Positions 729 through 27,297 of a stretch of 64,000 nucleotides of DNA are shown in pieces (positions within the stretch are counted from its first letter, which is position 1; each line of letters starts with the position of its first letter). The stretch spans positions 202,549 through 266,548 of the forward strand of contig NZ_CM001488.1 of the NCBI RefSeq assembly GCF_000233695.2. Reading direction: 5' to 3'. A program made the position numbers and the translations under genes. Under the pieces are notes generated by a model that worked only from the letters and a program-made list of their open reading frames with translations, did no database searches and was not told where the DNA came from. The stretch is from Desulfobacter postgatei 2ac9. Its GTDB lineage: Bacteria > Desulfobacterota > Desulfobacteria > Desulfobacterales > Desulfobacteraceae.

Positions 729-3700
729 ATGCAATTCCGGTTGCCTCACCCATTTTATGGATTTTTCATTGCCTGTTGTGTGTTGTGTTTGGCCGTTCTT
801 GCCGGGGATGCCGCAGCCTATGAGATGGGCACTGCGCCGTCATACACCACAGAACGGGTATTAATACTGCATTCTTACCACAAAGGATTCTCCTGGACCG
901 ACAATATCGAAGCAGGTATAAGAACGGCGCTGGAAGGCGAGTCCGTTGAATTTTTCATTGAGTATCTGGACAGCAAGCGTCAGCCGCTCGAAGCGGCAGG
1001 ATCTCACATTCTTGAATATCTGAACTGGAAATATAAAACCCTTCCCATTGATCTGCTGATCCTTTCCGATAACAATGCCCTCACTTTCCTTCAAAGTTAC
1101 AAGAAGAATCTTTTTCCTGACGTTCCGATTGTTTTCTGCGGCATCAATAATTTTCAACCAACCCTCCTTGAAGGATTTGAGCATCGCATCACCGGCGTGG
1201 TGGAAAAAACCGATCCCGTCAGGACCCTCCAACTGATTCGCCTGCTCCAGCCAAAAGCGGAAAAACTTTACCTCATTACCGGAACAACACCCACCGGTGA
1301 AGCTGTTGCAAAAGAAGTGGACGCGGCTTTGACGGCCGACAGCTTTGGATTTACGCCGGTGTGGCTTCGGGGATTGTCCACGGTTGAACTTGAGCAAAAT
1401 CTGTCCGCGGTATCGCCGAACGATGCCGTTTTTCTGGTGCTCTTCAACCGGGATAAAGATGGTGTATACTATAACTATGAGACGGCGGCAGAGCTGGTCG
1501 ATCGCGCCACGTTTGCCCCGGTATACGGCATGTGGGATTTTTACCTGGGCCACGGCATTGTCGGCGGGATGCTGGCCAGTTCCCGGGATCAGGGACTAAG
1601 AGCCGGCGCACTGGCCTTGAAGATTCTGCAGCAAAAAAACATTCCTCCTGTGATCACAGACAGTCCCAATGCCCCTATTTTCCTATGGGACAAACTTCGT
1701 TCCCATGGTTTAAATCCCGATCTGCTGCCACAGGATACCCAAATCCGCAACCGTCCGGATTCAAAAACATGGGCCGTTGCCATTGCCGCCGGGCTGGGGA
1801 TGCTGCTTTTTGCAGTGGCGGGATACAACCTGATCAGACTCTTTTCAAAGACCGACCGTTCTTTCTCCCGGTCTATGCCTGACGTATTTCGCAGCAATGT
1901 GCGCCAGGCGCTTATTCTTCTGAGCGTTGTTTTGGTGACGGGTCTGGCTGTTCAATCCTGGTTTGCTGCTAAAAATGAGATGGCGCAGATACGGCACAGC
2001 ATTTTTAATGAGAGAAAAGATCTGATCCGGACCATGGTCAATCGGGCCGTGGATTATATCAATTATGAACGTTACCGCCTGGGCCGGAAAGGTGCCTCAA
2101 TCCAAGACATTAAAAACCAAATACTTAAAGGTCTGGAAACTTACGTTTATGCCCACGGGGAGGGGTATCTTTTTGTTTTCACTGATCAGGGGGTTGTACT
2201 GCTTAATCGAATCCAGCCTGAACTGGTCGGCAAAAACCTCTTGGACATCACTGATCCCAACGGTATAAAAATCGCACAAAGCTTGATTGACGCAGCCGGT
2301 AAAGCCGGCGGCGGATTTGTTCAATATAAATGGAACAAGCCCAGTCTTGGGCGCGGGGTGCCGAAAATTTCGTTTGCACGGAAAATGAATGACTGGGGCT
2401 GGGTGATTGGAAGCGGCCTTTACCTGGATGATATTGAAAAAAACAGTCAGTTTTTTGCAAAACAGCAGCGCAACGAATTTATTGTGGAACTTTTAATTAT
2501 TTTCAGCCTGACATTAAGCGTGATTTTCCTTTTAAGACTGGTCTCCCGCCGTTTGACCGCAAGTATTGATAAAGAGCTTTTTCTGCTTCAGAAAGCCATT
2601 TCAGATCATGATGTTAATGCTGCTGATTATACCTTTCATGAATTTCAAGCCATCGCAGCGATGGCGGATGACAGTTTCAAAGAGCTGGCCCGGACCCAGG
2701 CATCCCTGATGGAGACAGAATCTCGGCAACGGGAAATTCTTGAACATCTGGATGCCGGCGTGGTTATCATCAGCCGGGCGGATCATCTGATCTGTTATGT
2801 CAATCCGACAGCCGCAAAACTCATCGGTACGGATCCCGATAGGATCATCGGCAATGAATGCATGAAATATATCTGTCCAACGGAAAAAGGAGCCTGCCCC
2901 ATCACGGACCTTGGGCAGATGATGGACAACAGCCCACGGATGCTTTTAAATACAGCCGGTCGTCAAATTCCCATTATGAAAACCGTCCGGCCTTTTACCT
3001 ATAACGGACAGCCGGCTCTTCTGGAAACCTTTGTGGATATCACAGAGCAGCAGAGGGCTGAAGATGCCCTTCGCCGGGAGCGTGAACGCCTGGCCAACGT
3101 AATTACGGGAACGGATGTCGGAACCTGGGAATGGAATGTTCAGACCGGTGAAACAGTATTTAATGAGCGATGGGCCCAGATCTGCGGTTACAGCCTTGGG
3201 GAGCTGTCGCCGGTTTCGATTGACACGTGGACGCATCTGGCGCACCCGGATGATTTAAAAAAGGTAGAAATCCTTTTAGATCGGCATTTCTCAGGAGAAC
3301 TGGACCGTTACGATGCTGAATGCAGGATGAGGCACAAAAACGGACACTGGGTCTGGGTGCAGGATAAAGGCAGGGTGATTTCCATAACCCATGATGGTAA
3401 ACCACTCATGATGTTTGGTACCCATACGGATATCACCGAACGCAAACAGGACCAGGAGAGGCTGCAGCGGTCTTTAGTGGAAACTGAGCAGGCCAACAAG
3501 GCGCTTAAAAAAGCCAGAAACAAATTAATAACCGTTAACGAACATCTGAAAAACCAGACAGCCCTGGCAAAACGGATGGCGGCCGGAGCTGAGATGGCAA
3601 CCCGGGCAAAGAGTGAGTTCCTGGCCAATATGAGTCATGAAATTCGGACGCCCATGAACGGTATCATCGGTATGACAGGGCTGCTGCTGGATACGGATCT

Positions 3701-5621
3701 CTCCGATGAACAACGCCTTTTCACCGGCAATGTCAAGGCAAGTGCCGACGCTCTTTTGACCTTGATCAACGATATTCTGGATTTTTCAAAAATTGAGGCC
3801 GGCAAACTGGATATGGAAATTCTGGATTTTGAATTGCGCCCCTTTCTGGATGATTTTGCCCATATGATGGCCCTGAAAGCCCATGAAAAAGATCTGGAGT
3901 TGATCTGCGAGGTATCGCCCGAGGTTCCGGGACAGCTTCAGGGCGATCCTGGCCGCCTTCGGCAAATCCTGACGAATCTGACTGATAATGCCATTAAGTT
4001 TACCAACGCCGGTGAGGTGGTGATACAGGCGCACCTCAAGCATCAAACCAAAGAAGAGGTCCTCATTTACTTTTCCGTAAAGGATACCGGTGTGGGTATA
4101 GCCCCGGAAAAACAGGGTCATCTGTTTGAACAGTTTACCCAGGTGGATGCTTCCATTACACGCAAATACGGCGGCACAGGGCTGGGTCTTGCCATATCTA
4201 AAAAACTGGCCCAACTGATGGGCGGAGATATCGGCGTTATTTCACCGGTTCCCGAAATCAACAAATTGGCAAGCCGTCCATCGGACAGCCTCCATTCAGG
4301 CTGCCTGTTCTGGTTTACGGCCCAATTTAAACAGCCGCCGTCATCTGCTGAAACCGGCCATGAGCAGAAAATCATGCCGGATCCATTAAAAAATGTCCGT
4401 ATTTTAATTGTTGATGATAACCGAACCAACCGGGAAACATTAGTAAGACAATTGGTCGGCATGGGGGCAAAGGTATCTGAAGCGGCAGATGGTAAAGCCG
4501 CCTTGGAAAAAATAAAGCGCACGGCACAGGAAAATAGACTCTATGACCTTGCGATACTGGATATACAGATGCCCGGCATGACCGGGGACAAGCTTGGCCT
4601 GGCCATCAAAAAAGAGGCGTTCGGGGCAGACATCAAACTGGTGTTGATGCTCTCCATAGGCCGGCGTGGGGATGCGCGTTATTTTCAATCCATCGGTTTT
4701 TCAGGATACCTTACCAAACCGGTGCGTTACTCGGAACTTTCAGACACGCTGGCCTCTGTTCTCTCCGGCGGACAGGCCGGCAAGGAAGAAAATGCCCGCA
4801 TTCGGCATTTAAATGGTGAAATCAAACAGCCCCATGTGAGGATTCTTCTGGCAGAAGACAATATCACAAACCAGATCGTTGCAAAGGGCATTCTGGAAAA
4901 ATTCGGTTACTCTGTGGATGCCGTGGCAAACGGTATTGAGGCGATCCGCGCCCTTGAAAAAATACCGTATGACATGGTATTGATGGATCTGCAGATGTCC
5001 GAACTGGATGGCCTTAAGGCCACCCGGATGATCCGCAATACAGCATCCAACGTTATTAACCCGAATATCCCGGTGGTCGCCATGACGGCCAATGCCATGG
5101 CCGGTGACCGGGAAAAATGCCTGAATGCAGGCATGAATGATTATATCAGCAAACCTGTAGATCCAATTATCCTGGCTGAAAAGATCGAAAAGTGGATTAA
5201 TCGTATCCAGCCGCGTAATCCGGAACGCTCCACCGTGGTTCAGAAAAAAGATAAGAAACATGGGACGGAGACCTTTAATCCGGAGGCGCTGAGAGCCAAT
5301 CTCATGGAAGACAAGCAGCTTATTGCAGCCACCATCCGTACCTTCCTTGATGACATGCCGGGGCAAATCGAGATTCTTTCTCAATTAATCAAACAAGGGC
5401 AGGCGCAAAAAGGTGGCGTCCAGGCCCATAAAATAAAGGGTGCATCCGGTTATGTGGCGGCGGATGCTTTTCAGAAAACCGCCTTCAAAATGGAAGTGGC
5501 GGGCAAAGCCGGGGATCTAAGAGAAGTTGAACAGCTTTTGCCGGAAATAAGTGAGCAGTTTTCCAGACTTAAGAGTGATCTGGAAGATTATGCGGCCCGT
5601 CTTACAGTATTGGATCATTGA
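729..5621 (+). CDS. Multidomain hybrid sensor histidine kinase
   Basis: This is a 1,630-residue membrane sensor kinase. It starts with a signal peptide (cleavage likely after AAA near residue 30), then an ABC substrate-binding-protein-like periplasmic domain (about 40-335) and a membrane span (347-373). A second span (393-415) and a Cache-type sensor (about 420-570, with the repeated-cache feature [14 protein letters not shown]) lead to a third span (583-604). Two PAS/PAC modules follow (about 660-780 and 785-910). The HisKA box has phospho-acceptor His970 in [10 protein letters not shown], followed by an HATPase with DTGVGI and GGTGLGL. Two receivers have Asp1278 and Asp1420, and a C-terminal HPt has His1567. 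The chain thus contains every step of a His-Asp-His-Asp-His relay. The first receiver lacks the canonical Thr/Ala spacing in places and may be a poor acceptor. The ligand is unknown; the substrate-binding domain suggests a small extracellular solute. No clear Shine-Dalgarno precedes the ATG. Confidence 0.9.
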
Positions 5622-18154: not shown

Positions 18155-19501
18155 TTATAAAGAGCTCAATATTTCCGAAAAGGTAGGATGCGCATGTATT
18201 ATCCCTTTAAATTCCTCCATCTTGATCTTTTTTTCAACCGCAAGCACCATTTCATGAATTATCTCAGCCGCCCCTGCGCCGATTATCGAGCTGCCTAATA
18301 TCACACCGCTGTTTGCACATACGATTATCTTGGCAAATCCTGAATCGTTACCCTCTATCTTAGCCTTTGGATTTGCTTTGAAAAAGGCCTTTTTCACTTC
18401 TATATCAAATCCCTTCTCTTTGGCTTCTTTTTCTTTAATTCCATAGCTTCCGATTGCCGGGTTGGAAAAGACAACAGAGGGGGTGACATGGCTATTGACT
18501 TCAGATGAGTGGTTTATGATATTTTGCACGGCGATCTTAGCCTCGGCATATGCCGTATGAGCATACGCAAGCGTCTCTATACAGTCGCCGACGGCATATA
18601 TACTTTTATTTGCTGTTTGAAATGACTCATTAACTTCTATAAATCCTTTCTCATTCACTTTTACCGAACAATTTTCAATACCGAGCCCTTGGGTATACGG
18701 GATTCTTCCTGTTGCACAAAGTACTGTTTCACACATGATAATATCCTGCATCTGCCCGCTGATATGCAGTTCTACGCCATCTTCTTTTTGCTGCGCCTTT
18801 TGTACAAAAGAGGAGGTCAGGACATTAATGCGTTGCTTTTTAAACCCTCGCATCAATGCAGCTGCGATATCCGCATCTTCAGAAGGAACAAGCTGCGATA
18901 GATACTCGACCAGCGTCACGTCAACGCCGAAAGCGTTAAAAAACGTTGCAAACTCACATCCTATGGCACCCCCTCCTATAATAGCAATAGATTCAGGCAG
19001 CTTTTCAAGTTTGAATATTTCACGGTTTGAAATGATATTTTTGCCATCTATTGGCAGCAAAGGAAGGTCTTTGACCTGTGAACCTGTTGCAATGATGCAT
19101 TTATCAAAAGTGATCTTTTCTCCCGCAACTTCAATAGTTTTATCATCCACAAAATGTGCAGTGCCGTATAAAAACTCTATGCCGGCTTGTTTCATCATCC
19201 ATAAGAGACCAGATCTCAGCTCATTCTTTAAAAGGTCTGTTCTATTTTTAAGACGCTTTAGATCCAAACCGCTTACTTCAATATCCAAGCCGTTTTCTTT
19301 AAAAAAAGAGGCTTTTGAAAAATATTGTGCACTTCTTAAATAGTTTTTGGTCGGGATACATCCTTCATTTAAGCAGGTTCCTCCTATACGCGCCTCTATC
19401 TGCTCTATAACCAGGGTTTTTACTCCCGCTCTTGCCAGCTGCAAAGCGGCTTCATAACCGCCCGGACCTGCCCCGATTACAACGGCTTCATGATTTCTCA
19501 T
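18155..19501 (-). CDS. lpdA: Dihydrolipoyl dehydrogenase (E3)
   Basis: This 448-residue FAD enzyme reoxidises dihydrolipoamide of the E2 encoded in the same operon, passing electrons to NAD. The FAD-binding VVIGAGPGGYEAALQLA is at the N-terminus, and the redox disulfide is in GGTCLNEGCIPTK (about residues 41-53). The NAD fold IAIIGGGAIGCEFATFF and the C-terminal HAHPTFSE with its active-site His-Glu pair are also present. It is the last gene of the operon and overlaps the preceding transferase gene by 14 bases. No terminator is obvious after it. Confidence 0.93.
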   Translation of the reverse strand: MRNHEAVVIGAGPGGYEAALQLARAGVKTLVIEQIEARIGGTCLNEGCIPTKNYLRSAQYFSKASFFKENGLDIEVSGLDLKRLKNRTDLLKNELRSGLLWMMKQAGIEFLYGTAHFVDDKTIEVAGEKITFDKCIIATGSQVKDLPLLPIDGKNIISNREIFKLEKLPESIAIIGGGAIGCEFATFFNAFGVDVTLVEYLSQLVPSEDADIAAALMRGFKKQRINVLTSSFVQKAQQKEDGVELHISGQMQDIIMCETVLCATGRIPYTQGLGIENCSVKVNEKGFIEVNESFQTANKSIYAVGDCIETLAYAHTAYAEAKIAVQNIINHSSEVNSHVTPSVVFSNPAIGSYGIKEKEAKEKGFDIEVKKAFFKANPKAKIEGNDSGFAKIIVCANSGVILGSSIIGAGAAEIIHEMVLAVEKKIKMEEFKGIIHAHPTFSEILSSL

Positions 19502-20321
19502 CTCTTCTCCTTATCAAATACTCATCCACTTGCTCTGCATCGATATTCCATTCTTTCCTGGCATATTTGTGCATCATAAGTTTTTTGGCTCTGTGCGCTT
19601 CTTTCATGCTTAATGTACTCTCTACAACATCCACGTCAAAGGTTTCACAAAAGGACTCTATCAGCAACTTTACAAGCTCTTGGTGATCTTTTGTGACGCC
19701 AAGCTTCATTAGCGATGCTGCTTTCTTTAAACCTGAATTTTCCAAAAAAAGAGGCTCAAAACACCTTTCATCAAAACTTAACGGTATGCTTCCGTGCTGA
19801 AAACAGGCCTGCTTGATATAGCGCTGGGCGTTACCGCCTATTTTTCTGCCCTCTATCAAAATATCATAAGCCTCATTTGAGGCAAGGCAGATATTTGACC
19901 TTGCGGTGTTTAATTTCATATCAACTGCAAACCTGGCTTTGCAGCCGAGCTTTTGATAAAAACGAATAAGAAATCTGCACAGATATCCGTAACTTTGGTT
20001 TGGACCTCTGCCTTTTAAAAATGCAGGAGGCATTATAAGCGAATAAGAAAGTTCATTTCCGTGTACAAATATACCTCCGCCAGTCATTCTGCGCACAAAA
20101 GGAATTTTCTGTTTTTGAAGCATCTCCATATCAAGGCTTTTATGCGGCTTGCTGAATCGTCCCAGACTAAGCGCTTTGTGCCATCTATAAAGCCTTAATA
20201 TCGGCATGTCGTTTTGGTTGAAACTATACAGCAGCGCCTCATCAACGGCCATATTCCAGCCAGCTTCTGCTATACCTGTTTCAACTCCCCGCCATCTTTT
20301 CAAACTATACCCTTCATACAT
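19488..20321 (-). CDS. LipM-like octanoyl/lipoyl transferase (LplA/LipB superfamily)
   Basis: This 277-residue protein has the biotin/lipoate A/B ligase fold. It shows NMAVDEALLY, the acyl-binding VRRMTGGGIFVHGNELSYSL (R-R-x-T-G-G-G) and GRKIGGNAQ with Lys160. NICLASNEAYD carries Cys145 where LipM-type octanoyltransferases have their catalytic cysteine, and its length matches LipM (about 278). True LplA ligases normally lack this cysteine and are longer. LipM takes octanoyl from acyl carrier protein, and an ACP gene lies immediately upstream, which supports that reading. It should modify the E2 lipoyl domain. A lipoate ligase role cannot be excluded. Confidence 0.75.
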   Translation of the reverse strand: MYEGYSLKRWRGVETGIAEAGWNMAVDEALLYSFNQNDMPILRLYRWHKALSLGRFSKPHKSLDMEMLQKQKIPFVRRMTGGGIFVHGNELSYSLIMPPAFLKGRGPNQSYGYLCRFLIRFYQKLGCKARFAVDMKLNTARSNICLASNEAYDILIEGRKIGGNAQRYIKQACFQHGSIPLSFDERCFEPLFLENSGLKKAASLMKLGVTKDHQELVKLLIESFCETFDVDVVESTLSMKEAHRAKKLMMHKYARKEWNIDAEQVDEYLIRRRDEKS

Positions 20322-20324
20322 AGA

Positions 20325-20576
20325 TTAATTCAATTTTATCCGCTCGACAAAGTACTCTGTCATACCGTTTAGTGTATCAACCTTTCCATAGTCCGCTTCG
20401 GGAACCTGTACCCCAAGCTGTTCATATAAAGCAGTAAGAAGGTGTAAAAAATCATACGAATCGATCTCTAAAGCGTTTTGCAGATTTTCATCTGATGGGA
20501 TATCATCATATTCAAGATCGGGAGCGATTATTCGTATCTGCTGAATTATGGATGTTTTGATCTGTTCTTTGTTCAT
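20325..20576 (-). CDS. Acyl carrier protein
   Basis: This 83-residue acidic protein has the phosphopantetheine site EIDSYDF with Ser40 and the usual four-helix pattern. Its sequence is diverged from the housekeeping AcpP (which has DSLD at this site), so it is probably a specialised carrier. Its start overlaps the E2 gene stop by four bases, and its stop lies three bases before the LipM-like gene. The coupling suggests it carries the octanoyl or lipoyl group for E2. That role is an inference from position. Confidence 0.8.
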   Translation of the reverse strand: MNKEQIKTSIIQQIRIIAPDLEYDDIPSDENLQNALEIDSYDFLHLLTALYEQLGVQVPEADYGKVDTLNGMTEYFVERIKLN

Positions 20577-21730
20577 AGCAGCTCCTTGGGATTTTGTAAA
20601 ATGCGGTTGAATTTATCAAGGAAAAGCGCCCCCGTACGGCCGTCCGTAGCTCTATGGTCACCGGCTAACGTAGCTTTCATGACCTTTTGTACAATAACTT
20701 TGTTCTCCTGCACCCAAGGCGTATCGATAATTTTACCCAAGCCTATAAGCGCAACCTGAGGCGGATAGATGACGCCATAGACATTTTCCACACCAAGATC
20801 ACCCAGATTTGTGATCGTAATGCTCTGCTGTGTCAGTTCTGCTCCGCGCAACTTGCCGGCTCTTGTGCGCATGATAAGATCATCCAGTGCCTGCATGGTC
20901 CGGCTCAAATTCATATCTTTTGCACCGAGCAAAGCCGGCGTGATCACTCCTTTTTTACGAAGTGCAATGGCAATACCGGGGTGAATTTCTTTGCAAACTT
21001 GATGATAACCTTCTTGCCAGTAACCGTTTAATTCAGGTACCGCTTCAAGTGCCAGCACGACTGCACGGATAATCATGGCTGCAGGTAAAATACGCGCCTT
21101 GATAGTAAGATTTTTATTTATCTCTTCCAGCCAAGACAGGGCAGGACTCATATTGACCGAAGCAGAAAGGTAATAGTGTGGAATCTCGGCATTGGAAAGA
21201 CTCATAGCAGATGCTATAGCCTGGCGCATTTTATCTGCTGAGGGCGTTTTCAATTCGGTTTTGGCAACTGATTCTATCTGGCTTAAGTGTATTTCTCCTT
21301 CACTTGTTTTTGCAAGATCAGCCAGATCAAGACCAAGCTGACGTGCTTTTTTACGTGCAGCAGGTGAGGCTTTGATACGCTGAGGCGGTGTTGTATCTTG
21401 ATATCGGTCCGGCGTGGCTTTTTCTAAAGGAGCTAAAGGAATTGCTTCAGTCTGCGCTTGCGCAGCAGTTACTGACGATACGGTTATATTTTCTTCGTCT
21501 GAGCGTATTAACGCAAGAGGCGTGCCTACGTTGCACTCGGTTTCAGGTTCAACCAAAATCTTTTCAATGATACCGTCCTGGAAAACCTCGATCTCAATGA
21601 CACCCTTGCTTGTCTCTATTTCGGCTATCACCTGGCCTTTTGTCACTCTATCGCCGACCTTGACCTTCCACTGCATTAATATGGCAGATTTCATATCTGC
21701 GCCAAGGCTGGGCATTAGAAATTCGCTCAT
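20573..21730 (-). CDS. pdhC: Dihydrolipoamide acetyltransferase (E2)
   Basis: This 385-residue E2 has one N-terminal lipoyl domain (residues 1-75, lipoyl Lys42 in [10 protein letters not shown]). A short linker leads to a peripheral subunit-binding domain ([17 protein letters not shown], about 113-150), then the catalytic domain ending in DHRATDG with His359 and Asp363. It transfers the acetyl group from E1 to CoA in the complex core. The start overlaps the E1 beta stop by four bases. An acetoin dehydrogenase E2 is the main alternative; the E1 sequences favour pyruvate. Confidence 0.88.
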
Positions 21731-22716
21731 GCTTCCTCCATGATCTGCCTTGCCATGGCGACTATTTTTACAGGTTGGGGGAGTGCGGCATCTTCTAAAT
21801 GTTTGGCATAAGGAAATGGAACTTCAGCGCTGCAGACCCTTCCCATCGGTGCATCAAGTTCAAAAAAAGCCTGCTCGTTGATACGCGCCATGATCTCGGC
21901 AGAAATGCTGCCTGATCTCCATCCTTCATCGACGATCATTACGCGGTGTGTCTTCTTTACGGAAGTCATGATCGTTTCATCATCAAGGGGTCGCAACGAG
22001 CGAAGGTCTATCACTTCGGCATCGATCTCTTCTTTTTCCAATATCTTTGCGGCATCCAATGCTTTGAAAAGATTGATCCCGTATGCAAGGATCGTCAGGT
22101 CTTTGCCCGGGCGTTTGACAACTGCTTTTTTGATGGGCAGAGGCTTGGCATTTGTATCAAGAGTTCCCTGGGAGTTATAAAGCAGTGAGTTCTCAAAGAT
22201 AAGTACCGGGTCAGGATCGTTAAGTGCCGATTCTATCATACTGTAGGCATCTTGTACCGTTGCAGGCGTCAGGACTTTGAGCCCCGGGATATGCGCATAC
22301 CAGCCTTCCAGAGAGTGGGAGTGCTGGGCTGCAAGCTGCTTTCCGCCGCCTGTTGACATACGGATAACCAAAGGAACGTTGAACTGCCCACCTGACATAT
22401 GCAGCAGTGTTGCGGCGTTGTTCATGATTTGATCCAGGGCCAATAGGCTGAAATTTACCGTCATAATCTCTACGATCGGTCTCATCCCGTTCAATGCCGC
22501 ACCGATACCCGCGCCCGTATATGCCGATTCGCACAGGGGCGTATCAATGATACGCTCTTTGCCGAACTCTTCCAAAAGACCTTTGCTTACGGCAAAACAT
22601 CCGCCGTAACGGCCTACATCTTCTCCCATTAAAAAGACCCTATCATCTTTTTGCATAGCATTTCTGATGCCTTCGCGTACAGCTTCCCGGTAAGTGGTCT
22701 GGTTATTCTCTTTCAT
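21727..22716 (-). CDS. pdhB: Pyruvate dehydrogenase E1 component, beta subunit
   Basis: This 329-residue subunit has the expected transketolase-like signatures: [31 protein letters not shown] at the N-terminus and [35 protein letters not shown] (substrate channel His), [10 protein letters not shown] and [11 protein letters not shown] also appear. It pairs with the alpha subunit encoded immediately upstream (four-base overlap) to bind TPP and decarboxylate the 2-oxoacid. Acetoin dehydrogenase beta subunits are similar in length, so substrate is assigned with some caution. Confidence 0.88.
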
Positions 22717-23681
22717 TGTACTTCCTCCGGTGAATAGACAAATTTTTCAAGATCGCTGATTGGTTCCAGTGTTCCATTTTCTGCAAACGTCACGGCGTCA
22801 TCAATGGTCTTTGTGATCTCATCTTCGATCTCTTGCGCGTTGATTTTTGACCATAACCCTCTCTCTTCAAGGTTTTTCTTAAAAGTTACCAGCGGTCCTT
22901 TATCTTTCCACTCATTGACTTCTGTTTTTTTACGGTAAAGTTCTGCATCAAACATTGAATGTGCTCTAAAACGGTATGTGAGACATTCAAGAAACACGGG
23001 CCCTTTGCCTGATTTGATATCTTCAACGGCATTTTTTGCAGACTCGGCGACCTGTGTCACATCCATCCCGTCAACCTGAAAAGAATTTATACGGTAGCTT
23101 GCCGCTTTTTTGGAAAGATTGACTTCCGACTCGGAGAATTCCAAAGCGGTACCCATCGCGTAATAGTTGTTTTCGCATATGAAAAGAACCGGTAACTGCC
23201 ACAATGATGCCAGATTTAGAGATTCGTGGAATTCACCCTCTGCTACGGCACCGTCTCCAAAGAAGCAGGCTGTTACCCGGTCGCGTTTCATCATTTTATC
23301 CGCAAGCGCCATACCAACGGCTAAAGGCAGGCCTCCGCCTACAATGGCATTGCCGCCGTAAAATCTGCGCTTTGCATCAAAAATATGCATAGAGCCGCCG
23401 CGCCCTCCGGCACAACCTTCTACTTTTCCGTACATTTCAGCCATGATGCTTTTAGCTGATATTCCCCGAGCCAATGCATGCCCGTGTTCCCTGTAAGTTG
23501 CGATCACGGCATCTTCGGCAGACAAAGCATGCATTACGCCTACGGCAATCGCTTCTTCCCCGATATATAGATGCAAAAAGCCCCTGATCTTTTCGCTGCT
23601 GTAGAGCTCGATACATTTTTCCTCAAAACGTCGTATCAAAAGCATTTGAGAATAAAATTTTTTGGCTAATTTTATATCCAT
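22713..23681 (-). CDS. pdhA: Pyruvate dehydrogenase E1 component, alpha subunit
   Basis: This 322-residue alpha subunit binds TPP through [17 protein letters not shown] followed by the I-C-E-N-N element. [39 protein letters not shown] and the [12 protein letters not shown] loop are typical of the bacterial and mitochondrial-like heterotetrameric pyruvate dehydrogenases. It lies 22 bases after the acetyl-CoA synthetase gene. In a strict anaerobe, NAD-linked pyruvate dehydrogenase is less common than pyruvate:ferredoxin oxidoreductase. That fits acquisition or use under particular redox conditions. Confidence 0.88.
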
Positions 23682-23703
23682 GACAATCTCCTGTAAATGA
23701 GGG

Positions 23704-25455
23704 TTATTGTTCTAAGGTCGAGGTGTCCCCCTCGGCCAAGCCAAGCTCTCTTGCCTTTATCAGCCTGCGCATGATTTTGCCGCTGCGTGTTTTTGGCAGA
23801 TTTTCCTTAAACTCGATCTCTTTGGGTGCAACGGCAGCGCCAAGTTTTTTACGTCCAAAGCCTATCAATTCGCGTTTGAGATCTTCGTTTGCTTCAACAC
23901 CGGCTTTTAGAGAAACAAAAGCCTTAACCAGCTGGCCGATTATGGGGTCGGGTTTTCCGATAACGCCGACTTCCGCAACTGCGGGGTGTTCCATCAATGC
24001 ACTTTCTACTTCAAAAGGTCCTACCATATGCCCTGACGTTTTTATGATATCATCGGCACGCCCGACAAACCAGAAGTAGCCATCCTCATCTTTATAGGCC
24101 AGGTCACCTGAAATATACCGGCCGCCTTTAAAGCATTTGTTATATTTTTCCTCATTATGAAGATATGCCCTGAACATTGAGGGCCATCCCGGTTTTAAGG
24201 CCAGGTCTCCCTCGGCTCCGGGTTCAATTATTTCCGTTACACTGCCATCATCTTCTACTTTTATTATCGACGCTTCAATGCCCGGAAGAGGCCTGCCCAT
24301 TGATCCTGGTTTAACTGTTTGTGATATCAGGTTTGAGATCATGATACCGCCTGTTTCGGTCTGCCACCAGTTATCATGAATCGGCATTTTAAGTTTTTCC
24401 AGGCCCCACAGTACGGCTTCTGGATTTAACGGTTCGCCTACGCTTTGAATCAGGCGCAGCTTTGAAAGATCGTATTCAAGTGTCGGTTCGGATTCGATCC
24501 TCATCAGACGCCTGATCGCAGTCGGAGCCGTGTACCATACGGTAACTTTTTCATCTTGTAAAATGCTATACCATCTTTGGGCATTGAACTCTGCTTCATC
24601 GGCAATATTCGTTACCCCATGCAGCCACGGGGCAATGATGCCGTATGACGTTCCGGTCACCCAGCCCGGATCGGCCGTGCACCAGAAAACATCATCTAAA
24701 TGCAGGTCCAATACATATTTTCCACTCATCCAGTGGGTATAAAGCGCCTTGTGAACATGAACGACTCCTTTTGGCATTCCTGTGGTTCCGCTGGTAAAAT
24801 GAAGTATAGACATATCCTCGGGATCGGTGGGCTCGATCTCAAACTCATCGGAAGCCTCTTTTAAAAGGCGAGGCAGTGAAAGAATTTTTTCACTTTGGTC
24901 ATATTGCTCATCTATTACTAATATATATTGAAGATCGGGAAGCTGATCCATAATAGGAAGTATCTTTTTTTCAAAGAGTTTCTTTGTGGTCAGAAGTGCT
25001 TTTGCATCACCGCGGAGCATCCGCTGTAAAATAGGCTCGGGTCCGAATTGTGAAAAAAGAGGGCAGATCACATTTCGGTTTTTTAAGATTCCTATTGCTG
25101 CAATGTAGAGCTCGGGTACTCTTGGCGAGAGGGTAAATATTCTTTCGCCCTTTGCAAGTCCGAGCGATCTTAGGATATTGGCGAATTTAGCCGTCTCTTT
25201 TTTCATTTTAGCAAAGCTAAACTCTTGCTTTTGGCTGTTTTGGCCAAGCCACACCAAAGCGGTTTTATTTGCCAGTTTTGAGTTGGCATGGCGGTCTATG
25301 GCTTCATGGGCGATATTGAGCCCTCCGCAGGGCAGTCCTTCAAATTGTTCGCCTATTTTTTCCCATTCAAAAGATTTTTTCTCTTTTTCATAGTCGATCA
25401 GGTTCGGGGTAACTTTAAGATCAGATATATTTTTTTCGATCCAATTCTTTTCCAT
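23704..25455 (-). CDS. acsA: Acetyl-CoA synthetase (AMP-forming)
   Basis: This 583-residue adenylate-forming enzyme activates acetate to acetyl-CoA with ATP. Motifs present are [16 protein letters not shown] (P-loop), [33 protein letters not shown] and the C-terminal [13 protein letters not shown] with the regulatory acetylation lysine. I start it at ATG 25455, where AAAGGACA sits six bases upstream. The longer frame to 25545 adds 30 residues without a ribosome-binding site. It heads the pdh operon, so acetate activation and pyruvate oxidation share one transcript. Length fits AcsA of Bacillus type rather than the 650-residue Acs. Confidence 0.88.
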
Positions 25456-25614
25456 TTTTTTGTCCTTTGAAAAGTCCGGATTAATAAGAAGTATGTTAAA
25501 TGATAAATTGGCAGCATTGAGGAGTGATTGTTCTTTTACAACCATGAAATCCTCAAGCCCCAGTGTTGTTTTGTATCACGAAAGTTAAATTCAATCTGGA
25601 ATCTCGTACGATAA
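25456..25614. other. Junction between acs operon promoter region and IS
   Basis: This A+T-rich stretch should hold the acs-pdh promoter, but no convincing box pair is seen on the minus strand. The right part merges with imperfect similarity to the outer end of the neighbouring IS (about 25580-25614). The IS may therefore have landed just upstream of, or replaced, the native promoter. Confidence 0.4.
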
Positions 25615-27297
25615 TACTCGATGATCCAGTTTTTTGGGATTAGACAATGTCACAATATTGGGAAATGTAAAGGCTGGTCAAGTCGATGGTATAATACCAA
25701 CTATTCCAGCTGATATCTCACCCATCGGTTGGCCAGCCTCCACTGAGCAGAATAAAATAAGTTTTACTTGAATACAAGGGTTCCATTGCGATATATGCTT
25801 CATTTCTGCAAATAATAAATGAGGCGGATGTGTTAATAGAGAAGCTGTTGCCGTTTGTTGAAAATTATACCGAGTCACTGAATACTGAGTTAACAGAGTC
25901 TTCCCCTGGGATGACCTTAAGTAAATCACAAAAATTCTGGCTGGGTTTCTGCATCACTGGAATCATTTTAACTAACAGCATCAATTGGACTGCTTTTTCC
26001 CGTATCAGCATAGGACGGTATAAAAAAACAGCTCTTTCCTGGATGTTTCGCCATTCTAAAATTGCTTGGGAGCATTTGTTCCACCTCAGCCTCAAAATTA
26101 TTTTCAAAGTATATGATATCACCAAAGGTGTTGTCAGTATTGATGATTCCGATAAAAAACGCAGTAAATGCACAACAAAAATTTTTGGCGCCAACAAAAT
26201 AAAAGACAAATCAACAGGCGGTTTTTGCATGGGTCAAGGCTTGGTATTTTTGGTATTGATAACACCGAAAATAACCATTCCAATAGGCTACGCCTTTCAT
26301 GTTCCTGATCCAAAAATCAGCGAATGGGTCAAGGAGGATAAAAGGTTAAAAAGGCTGGAGTACCAAAATCAGAACGCTCGAAAAAGCCGGTGCGATCAGA
26401 TGAATATCCAACTATTTCAAGTATTTCTATAGCTCTTTTAAAAACCTTTGTACAGCAACACCCTGAAATAAAAATAGAAGCAATTGTTGCAGATGCCTTG
26501 TATGGTAATGCTGAGTTCATGGATGAGGCTTCAAAAATTGCAGGAAGCGCTCAAGTCATTAGTCAAATAAGGTACAATCAAAATATTTCATTCAAAAACA
26601 GTAAAAAATCAGTGGAAAAATATTTTGAAAATATTCAACCGATTCAAAAAACCATACATATACGCGGAGGCAAAGGGGTTGTTGTACTTATTAAAAGTGC
26701 CAGAATACATGTGTGTGCCCATAGAAAAAAACGATTTGTCATTGCAATAAAATACACTGGAGAAGAGGACTATCGGTACCTTGTCGCTTCGGACCTGACC
26801 TGGCGATATGCTGATATAATAGATGCTTTTACACTCAGATGGTTAGTAGAGGTTTTTATTCAAGACCACAAGGGTAATGAAGGGTGGGGAAATTTGACCA
26901 AACAACCTGGTAAAGATGGGTCTTACAGAAGTTTGACCCTGAGTCTGTTGGTTGATCATTGTCTCCTCCTTCATCCGGACCAGGTGGCCTCGATAAATAA
27001 CAAACTGCCCGCAAAAACTGTTGGCAGCCTATGTGATATCGTCAAAGTTGACAGCATCTTATCCTTTGTCGAACAAATCATTCACAGTGATGACCCAGAA
27101 TCCCATTTCAAGCAGATCTCGGTATTTTTAAAAGAGCATTTTGTAAAGTCAAATGATTCCAAAAAACACATGAATCTAAAACCTTGGGGAAATTATCAAT
27201 CCTCCCCATCATTAAAATATAAAGCATTCTGTTAACATGGGGATAATAACTGGTAGATACGTTCCATGTCAATTTTTAAAAACTGGATCATCGAGTA
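25615..27297 (+). mobile_element. Insertion sequence with 20-bp perfect terminal inverted repeats
   Basis: TACTCGATGATCCAGTTTTT at 25615-25634 is repeated in inverted orientation at 27278-27297. Weaker similarity continues outward for about 30 bases on both sides, so the real ends may lie beyond these coordinates. The element encloses a transposase split over two frames (25761-27235). Target-site duplication is not clear. The transposase is of IS4-superfamily type; I cannot name the family with confidence. Confidence 0.75.
25761..27235 (+). pseudogene. IS4-superfamily DDE transposase, split by a -1 frameshift
   Basis: Frame 1 runs from an open region at 25761 (GTG at 25830 possible start) to 26432 and carries SIDDSDKKRSK, the first DDE aspartate. 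Frame 2 carries IVADALYGNAEF (second Asp) and LRWLVEVFIQDHKGNEGW (Glu) and ends at 27235. Both frames join perfectly if the ribosome slips back one base at AAAAA (26348-26352), giving KKAGVPKSERSKKP across the joint. Either one A was lost or the shift is programmed. The domain content is otherwise complete, with three acidic residues and a normal length of about 470 residues. Confidence 0.75.

Follow-up and report, generated by a model that had tools for sequence, protein, structure and literature searches.

A recurrent pyruvate dehydrogenase gene unit with a linked acyl carrier protein gene, accompanied by a LipM-like transferase gene in Desulfobacter postgatei

The stretch of DNA analysed here, referred to below as the window, comprises 64,000 nucleotides of the genome of Desulfobacter postgatei 2ac9, and its feature of interest is a pyruvate dehydrogenase (PDH) operon that includes a gene for an acyl carrier protein (ACP). 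Seven genes lie on the minus strand in the order acs, E1alpha, E1beta, E2, ACP, a LipM-like gene, and E3 (Table 1), with successive spacings from acs to E3 of 22, −4, −4, −4, 3, and −14 bases, where negative values denote overlaps. A first-pass annotation of this DNA had described the same order, neighbouring genes overlapping or being separated by no more than 22 bases, and the coordinates and domain searches agree with it.

Table 1. Genes of the operon, in positions of the 64,000-nucleotide window of Desulfobacter postgatei 2ac9
Feature	Position	Strand	Basis
acs, acsA-type acetate--CoA ligase (AMP-forming)	23704..25455	-	NF003313/PRK04319 921 bits, cut-off 729
PDH E1alpha	22713..23681	-	TIGR03182 447 bits, cut-off 394
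PDH E1beta	21727..22716	-	NF006667/PRK09212 412 bits, cut-off 321
E2	20573..21730	-	Pfam PF00364, PF02817, PF00198
ACP	20325..20576	-	PF00550 28.5 bits, threshold 20.8; Ser40 in DS motif
LipM-like octanoyltransferase	19488..20321	-	PF21948; Cys145, downstream GRK
E3 dihydrolipoyl dehydrogenase	18155..19501	-	TIGR01350 448 bits, cut-off 409

The products of acs, E1alpha, E1beta, and E3 exceed curated NCBIfam cut-offs; those of E2, ACP, and the transferase gene fall under every curated NCBIfam cut-off shown, yet stand above those of Pfam (PF00198, PF00364, PF00550, and PF21948). The acs product is 583 aa long from the start adopted in the first-pass annotation, a Met at which its relative in the Desulfobacter genome G420 also begins, and the longest open reading frame (ORF) starts at 25545. 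The E2, which is the sole PF00198 match of the genome, contains one lipoyl domain (Lys42), a partial match to the E3-binding domain PF02817, and an acyltransferase core with the motif DHRxxDG (His359, Asp363). Its best score among the curated PDH E2 models is 223 bits on TIGR01349, which has a cut-off of 445, and the E2 of a related Methylocystis unit reaches 208 on the same scale.

Plasmid records were searched with ACP and with E2, genomes were searched with E2, and the stretches so located were read, resulting in 25 units, the window included, that contain acs, E1alpha, E1beta, E2, and ACP. They are distributed among the Desulfobacterota (nine: the window, Desulfobacter latus, G420, and six other genomes), the Pseudomonadota (seven in Alpha-, three in Beta-, and one in Gammaproteobacteria), and the Actinomycetota (five). 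Forty plasmid records had an E2 match, of which 19 were read and 16 held units, the exceptions being L122, L124, and L125. Eleven of 395 genomes scored above the E2 threshold, of which seven carried the unit, G179 and G056 did not, and G363 and G268 were left unread; with at most four candidates scored per genome, this search may have overlooked units. Two further units, those of G420 and D. latus (G407), came from a search of 86 genomes of the family and a scan of genome contigs. A degenerate locus of Rhodococcus opacus (L057), in which acs and E1alpha were not found, is excluded from the 25, and two of the units (L081 and L119) have one stop each within the tblastn match, the other 23 having none.

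The five genes occur in one order and on one strand in every unit, with E1alpha and E1beta fused into a single reading frame in five of them. With the ACP start that we chose, the end of E2 and the beginning of ACP share 4 bases in 23 of the 25 units; the record of a Tropicibacter plasmid annotates that start 15 bases later. This record, which was found by searching plasmids with the ACP, lists acsA, E1, E2, and ACP in succession with no lipoate gene adjoining. The ACP was absent from all ten control E1/E2 loci outside the group (tblastn with three ACP queries, E ≤ 1e-6). Within the stretches read, which span 5.9–24 kb, a LipM-like gene is present in two of the 25 units, in one of which it is split by an insertion, and E3 is present in one. 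Because the ACP is found in every unit, LipM and E3 are near in only two and one, respectively, and the E1 proteins of the 18 units tested form a single clade, comparison of the loci identifies the core as a recurrent ACP-linked PDH unit, to which LipM and E3 are a local addition.

The assignment to PDH, already made in the first-pass annotation, is backed by an E1 tree, the TIGR03182 score, and the catalytic residues of E2. The tree was built from joined E1alpha and E1beta sequences (25 rows, several control branches being long) and covers 18 of the 25 units, with L116–L121 and L123 not included. All 18 unit E1s form one clade with support of 100/100, whose neighbours, with support of 100/98, are two PDH E1s, one annotated as such in Sphingobium and one from G179 that we labelled ourselves; three acetoin E1s fall outside this grouping. 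The E1alphas of the Methylocystis unit and of the Sphingobium PDH likewise exceed the TIGR03182 cut-off of 394, and two acetoin-operon E1alphas lie below it at 343 and 335. The lipoyl Lys and the catalytic His are invariant among the E2s of the 25 units, and 23 of these E2s have the catalytic Asp; that of the window has all three. The presence of acs beside E1 and E2 brings to mind acoE operons, such as that of Ralstonia with its acetyl-CoA synthetase, but an acetoin dehydrogenase was rejected on the evidence of the tree and of the scores on TIGR03182. In the E2s of L085 and L087 (Sinorhizobium and one Leisingera unit), His and Gly replace the catalytic Asp. A different arrangement was observed on an Agrobacterium plasmid (L098:9897-10871), where a PDH-like E1-E2-E3 operon lies by sugar transport genes, with an annotated lipA after it. 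The E1 of this operon groups with neither the PDH nor the acetoin E1s.

The phosphopantetheine Ser of the ACP is conserved in all 25 units, and the operon ACP scores above no curated cut-off, its best being 30 of 71 bits. As a fatty-acid ACP (AcpP) it was rejected, since it reaches about 26–27 bits on TIGR00517 against a cut-off of 70; a separate fatty-acid ACP in the window's genome scores 79 bits on that model, above the cut-off. The ACP frame is intact in three Desulfobacter genomes (the window, G420, and D. latus) at 84–90% identity, the G420 protein being 90% identical to that of the window. Its ratio of nonsynonymous to synonymous substitution rates (dN/dS) among these genomes is 0.32–0.41, and thus the ACP is constrained also where LipM is missing or split.

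The transferase of the window is a protein of 277 aa with a single PF21948 domain over residues 22–226, and a Pfam search of it gave no match to the LplA accessory domain. The first-pass annotation had pointed to a cysteine in this protein, at what we take to be LipM's catalytic position; Cys145 is confirmed, with GRK downstream, and an alignment with 29 relatives shows it in every one of them (30 of 30 sequences). These relatives, from Desulfobacterota genomes, were the best of those in 61 other genomes with a match, 62 of 395 genomes having matched when the window's own is counted. Around the 17 closest (L036–L052; flanks of about 9 kb per side, shorter in L042, L045, L049, and L052), lipA is near 15 and glycine-cleavage P genes are near 12. 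Around the 12 more distant ones, with flanks of at most 1.5 kb, lipA was found in four and gcvH in four, and 9-kb flanks of the distant relatives L053 and L055 held neither. Since an octanoyltransferase needs lipA, the close relatives stand in the setting of such an enzyme and not in that of a salvage ligase. A salvage ligase of the LplA type was rejected, the protein scoring far under the ligase cut-offs (at best 76 of 280 on TIGR00545, and 75 of 550 on LplAB). Judged by its conserved cysteine and by the gene neighbourhoods of its relatives, the LipM-like protein looks like a genuine octanoyltransferase, whose gene in the window sits with PDH genes, unlike its close relatives near lipA and glycine-cleavage (gcv) genes.

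Within the genus, the transferase is a loose part. E2 is found in three of 19 genomes and the transferase in two, and a scan of genome contigs with the transferase returned only two contigs of D. latus, at 85–90% identity. Its frame is split across these two contigs (L002:5813-5948 and L001:1-135). At the contig ends, complementary termini of 22 bases adjoin a direct repeat of 8 bases, a pattern such as the insertion of a transposable element leaves; the two halves of the transferase give dN/dS values of 0.25 and 0.54 against the window. E3 was not found behind the D. latus transferase, where a set of ABC transporter genes is present instead. G420 has all five unit genes and no transferase match genome-wide at E ≤ 1e-8. 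Among the six other Desulfobacterota genomes with a unit, only G132 has a transferase match (E ≤ 1e-20); this match, at 31% identity, contains a stop and lies a long way from the unit. The plasmid search with the transferase gave 31 records, all below 60% identity; among the 20 listed, at 22–28%, the record of Streptomyces BHT-5-2 alone also includes one of the units read, distant from the match.

Lipoyl synthase, which the first-pass annotation had expected to be supplied from elsewhere, is indeed encoded elsewhere in the genome by lipA (G000:C1:647957-648808), beside lipB and unlinked to the operon. LipB is present in all nine Desulfobacterota genomes that carry the unit, and the window's genome has one strong and two weak matches to GcvH. 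In G132, a divergent lipB-lipA pair stands beside the unit (L073:13884-15450), the sole such case among the 25.

Set beside the gene content and order, the 4-base overlap of E2 and ACP, the one E1 clade, and the conserved catalytic and carrier residues described above, the reading we prefer, and to which we give about even weight for and against, is that the five-gene core encodes a PDH with a dedicated holo-ACP that is made in step with E2 and takes an acyl group from it, LipM and E3 having been added in the window. E1 would decarboxylate pyruvate and pass acetyl to the E2 lipoyl arm. The ACP, docked on E2, would accept acetyl or a different acyl group through its phosphopantetheine, alongside CoA or in its stead, and Acs would draw on acetate to fill the same C2 pool. 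Lipoylation in the window would start with the LipM-type transferase, from a line that elsewhere accompanies the glycine cleavage system, which would move octanoate from general octanoyl-ACP to the lysine of E2; sulfur insertion would fall to the LipA of the genome and reoxidation of the lipoyl arm to E3. LipB would probably serve the H protein and probably be able to replace LipM. An acyl acceptor for E2 is our best guess for the role of the ACP. Only tentatively do we extend this to a PDH of primary metabolism that, in at least three phyla, uses a holo-ACP of its own as acetyl acceptor, either replacing CoA or alongside it, with Desulfobacter also having recruited a glycine-cleavage-type LipM for its E2.

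Transfer to the carrier has some chemical and comparative background. The terminal part of the ACP arm is chemically the same as that of CoA, and the naphthyridinomycin and quinocarcin pathways (NapB/NapD and QncN/QncL) presumably offer a precedent for the transfer of a C2 unit to a carrier by PDH-like modules. When the E2 cores of the 25 units were compared with seven other E2s, using thresholds of our own, fourteen positions distinguished the two sets; at position 201 every one of the 25 has Leu, Val, or Ile, as against Arg or Lys in six of the seven others. The equivalent Arg of Azotobacter E2p and of bovine E2b is one that we take to make contact with CoA.

Several observations weigh against this reading. 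One of the seven other E2s has Leu at position 201, and RenI, an E2 homologue of the renieramycin pathway and part of a module of the same type as that presumed precedent, keeps Arg at the equivalent position. The ACP is under weaker constraint than the other four unit genes, whose dN/dS among the three Desulfobacter genomes is 0.11–0.22, and the operon contains no evident consumer of acetyl-ACP. The unit E2 retains the usual His and Asp of the active site, so it may pass its acyl group to CoA, and the ACP may have another role. According to a study of E. coli E2p, CoA reaches the enzyme from inside a core with openings about 30–40 Å wide (PMC8421416), so that the ACP would have to get there.

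The best surviving alternative, which we nonetheless consider doubtful, casts the ACP as a subunit with a structural or regulatory role, serving in docking or in sensing the acyl/CoA state, and not an acyl acceptor. The overlap of the ACP and E2 genes and their co-conservation would suit such a subunit, and complex I ACPs are among the Protein Data Bank (PDB) matches of the operon ACP, ACPs being structural subunits elsewhere. The phosphopantetheine Ser kept in every ACP speaks for a carrier, but not decisively, as structural ACPs may keep it too.

An unlikely alternative concerns the transferase, which would be a GcvH-to-E2 amidotransferase resembling LipL and not an ACP-dependent enzyme. LipL, too, is a single-domain enzyme of the family that has a catalytic Cys, and GcvH is encoded in the window's genome. 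Judged by gene neighbourhood, however, the nearest relatives of the transferase stand in the setting expected of LipM, near lipA and glycine-cleavage genes. In Bacillus subtilis, according to two reports, LipM modifies only GcvH and LipL relays the group to E2 (PMC6067878, PMC10332631).

The first-pass annotation had instead seen in the ACP an octanoyl source reserved for the LipM-like transferase, to serve this E2, a proposal that is not borne out and that we now hold to be quite improbable. In its favour are the short distance between the two genes, Cys145 in the transferase, the position of the window E2 as the genome's only PF00198 protein, and the preference of B. subtilis LipM for C8-ACP over C8-CoA noted in one report (PMC9307952). 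That the ACP gene directly precedes the transferase gene is correct, the 3-base gap being real, but their pairing as private partners is not supported; the genome search that had been suggested for an ACP-LipM-PDH arrangement did recover ACP with PDH in 25 units, with a LipM-like gene in just two. The other 23 retain the ACP with no LipM-like gene in the stretch read, the remaining DNA of the plasmid hosts not having been searched for LipM. G420 keeps its ACP with no LipM match in its genome, and in D. latus LipM is split while the ACP frame is open. With LipB in all nine Desulfobacterota genomes and a fatty-acid ACP in that of the window, a private donor is neither needed nor the pattern; nor would one be required given that E. 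coli LipB, according to the same source, accepts octanoate from non-cognate ACPs (PMC9307952). Least probable of all is that Acs acts as an acetyl-ACP synthetase which loads the ACP, in place of E2, for a separate lipid or polymer pathway, for although acs is in every unit and one unit adjoins genes for fabI, phosphate acetyltransferase, and acetate kinase, acs is the gene most distant from that of the ACP, which overlaps E2, and the window Acs scores as an ordinary acetate--CoA ligase.

As regards the surroundings of the units, genes for universal stress proteins or Hsp20 are near seven of the ten annotated plasmid units (L081, L083, L084, L085, L087, L116, and L123), which hints that the plasmid units are used under stress; L056, L082, and L086 have no such gene within the stretch read. 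Some of the seven are also near CBS, Crp/Fnr, nicotinate phosphoribosyltransferase, or DUF2267 genes. In G420, the unit lies directly downstream of a gene set resembling that of an ATP synthase (L078:1060-5553), where ORF 3092-4618 has a match to the alpha/beta family.

Upstream of acs in the window, two overlapping plus-strand ORFs in different frames (25830-26432 and 26390-27235) appear transposase-like by eye and have no Pfam match. Between 18000 and 28000, G+C content is 38–47% per 2 kb across the operon and its upstream flank, mostly below that of adjoining bins (about 50%), and GC skew is negative, which may merely reflect coding on the minus strand. Acquisition of the operon from outside would fit the low G+C content and its presence in three of the 19 genomes of the genus. 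Promoter-like sites number 23 against a shuffle mean of 14.2 (sd 3.6) and terminator-like sites 11 against 8.2 (sd 2.9); neither count was used as evidence.

The product of PDH in textbooks is acetyl-CoA, and an ACP gene tied to that of E2 implies a further function of the complex. This tie extends over Desulfobacterota, Alpha-, Beta-, and Gammaproteobacteria, and Actinomycetota, often amid genes for stress proteins, and we consider the ACP-linked unit, rather than the addition of LipM, to be the more interesting part of a finding that is real and half explained. Searches of the open-licence literature aimed at the acs-PDH-ACP unit or at transfer from PDH to a carrier gave no published account of such an operon, as judged by titles and the beginnings of abstracts. 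As for LipM, with the B. subtilis enzyme reported to act on GcvH alone (PMC6067878), its presence in a PDH operon of a genome that also has LipB would point to a new target.

Among known systems, the PDH-like modules for tetrahydroisoquinoline antibiotics, to which NapB/NapD and QncN/QncL also belong, resemble the unit in that RenH and RenI of the renieramycin plasmid contain E1 and E2 domains, but they are remote from it (32–35% and 22% identity) and no ACP like that of the operon was found beside them. Acetoin dehydrogenase operons with an acetyl-CoA synthetase share the combination of acs with E1alpha, E1beta, and E2, whereas the E1 of the unit groups with PDH, outside the three acetoin E1s, and the unit has an ACP. 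With canonical PDH of the E1alpha/beta type, the unit has in common a sister E1 clade, the lipoyl Lys, the DHRxxDG core, and a match to the E3-binding domain; it differs in its leading acs and in an ACP gene that overlaps or adjoins E2 (25 of 25 units versus none of ten controls), and the E2s of the window and of the Methylocystis unit fall under all NCBIfam E2 cut-offs shown. The transferase, finally, is like LipM of the B. subtilis type in its single PF21948 domain, its Cys followed by GRK, and its relatives near lipA and gcv genes, and unlike it in lying in a PDH operon, not beside gcv or lipA. Unlike the usual LipM, it also shares its genome with LipB, a combination that Tanabe et al. describe as very rare (PMC10332631).

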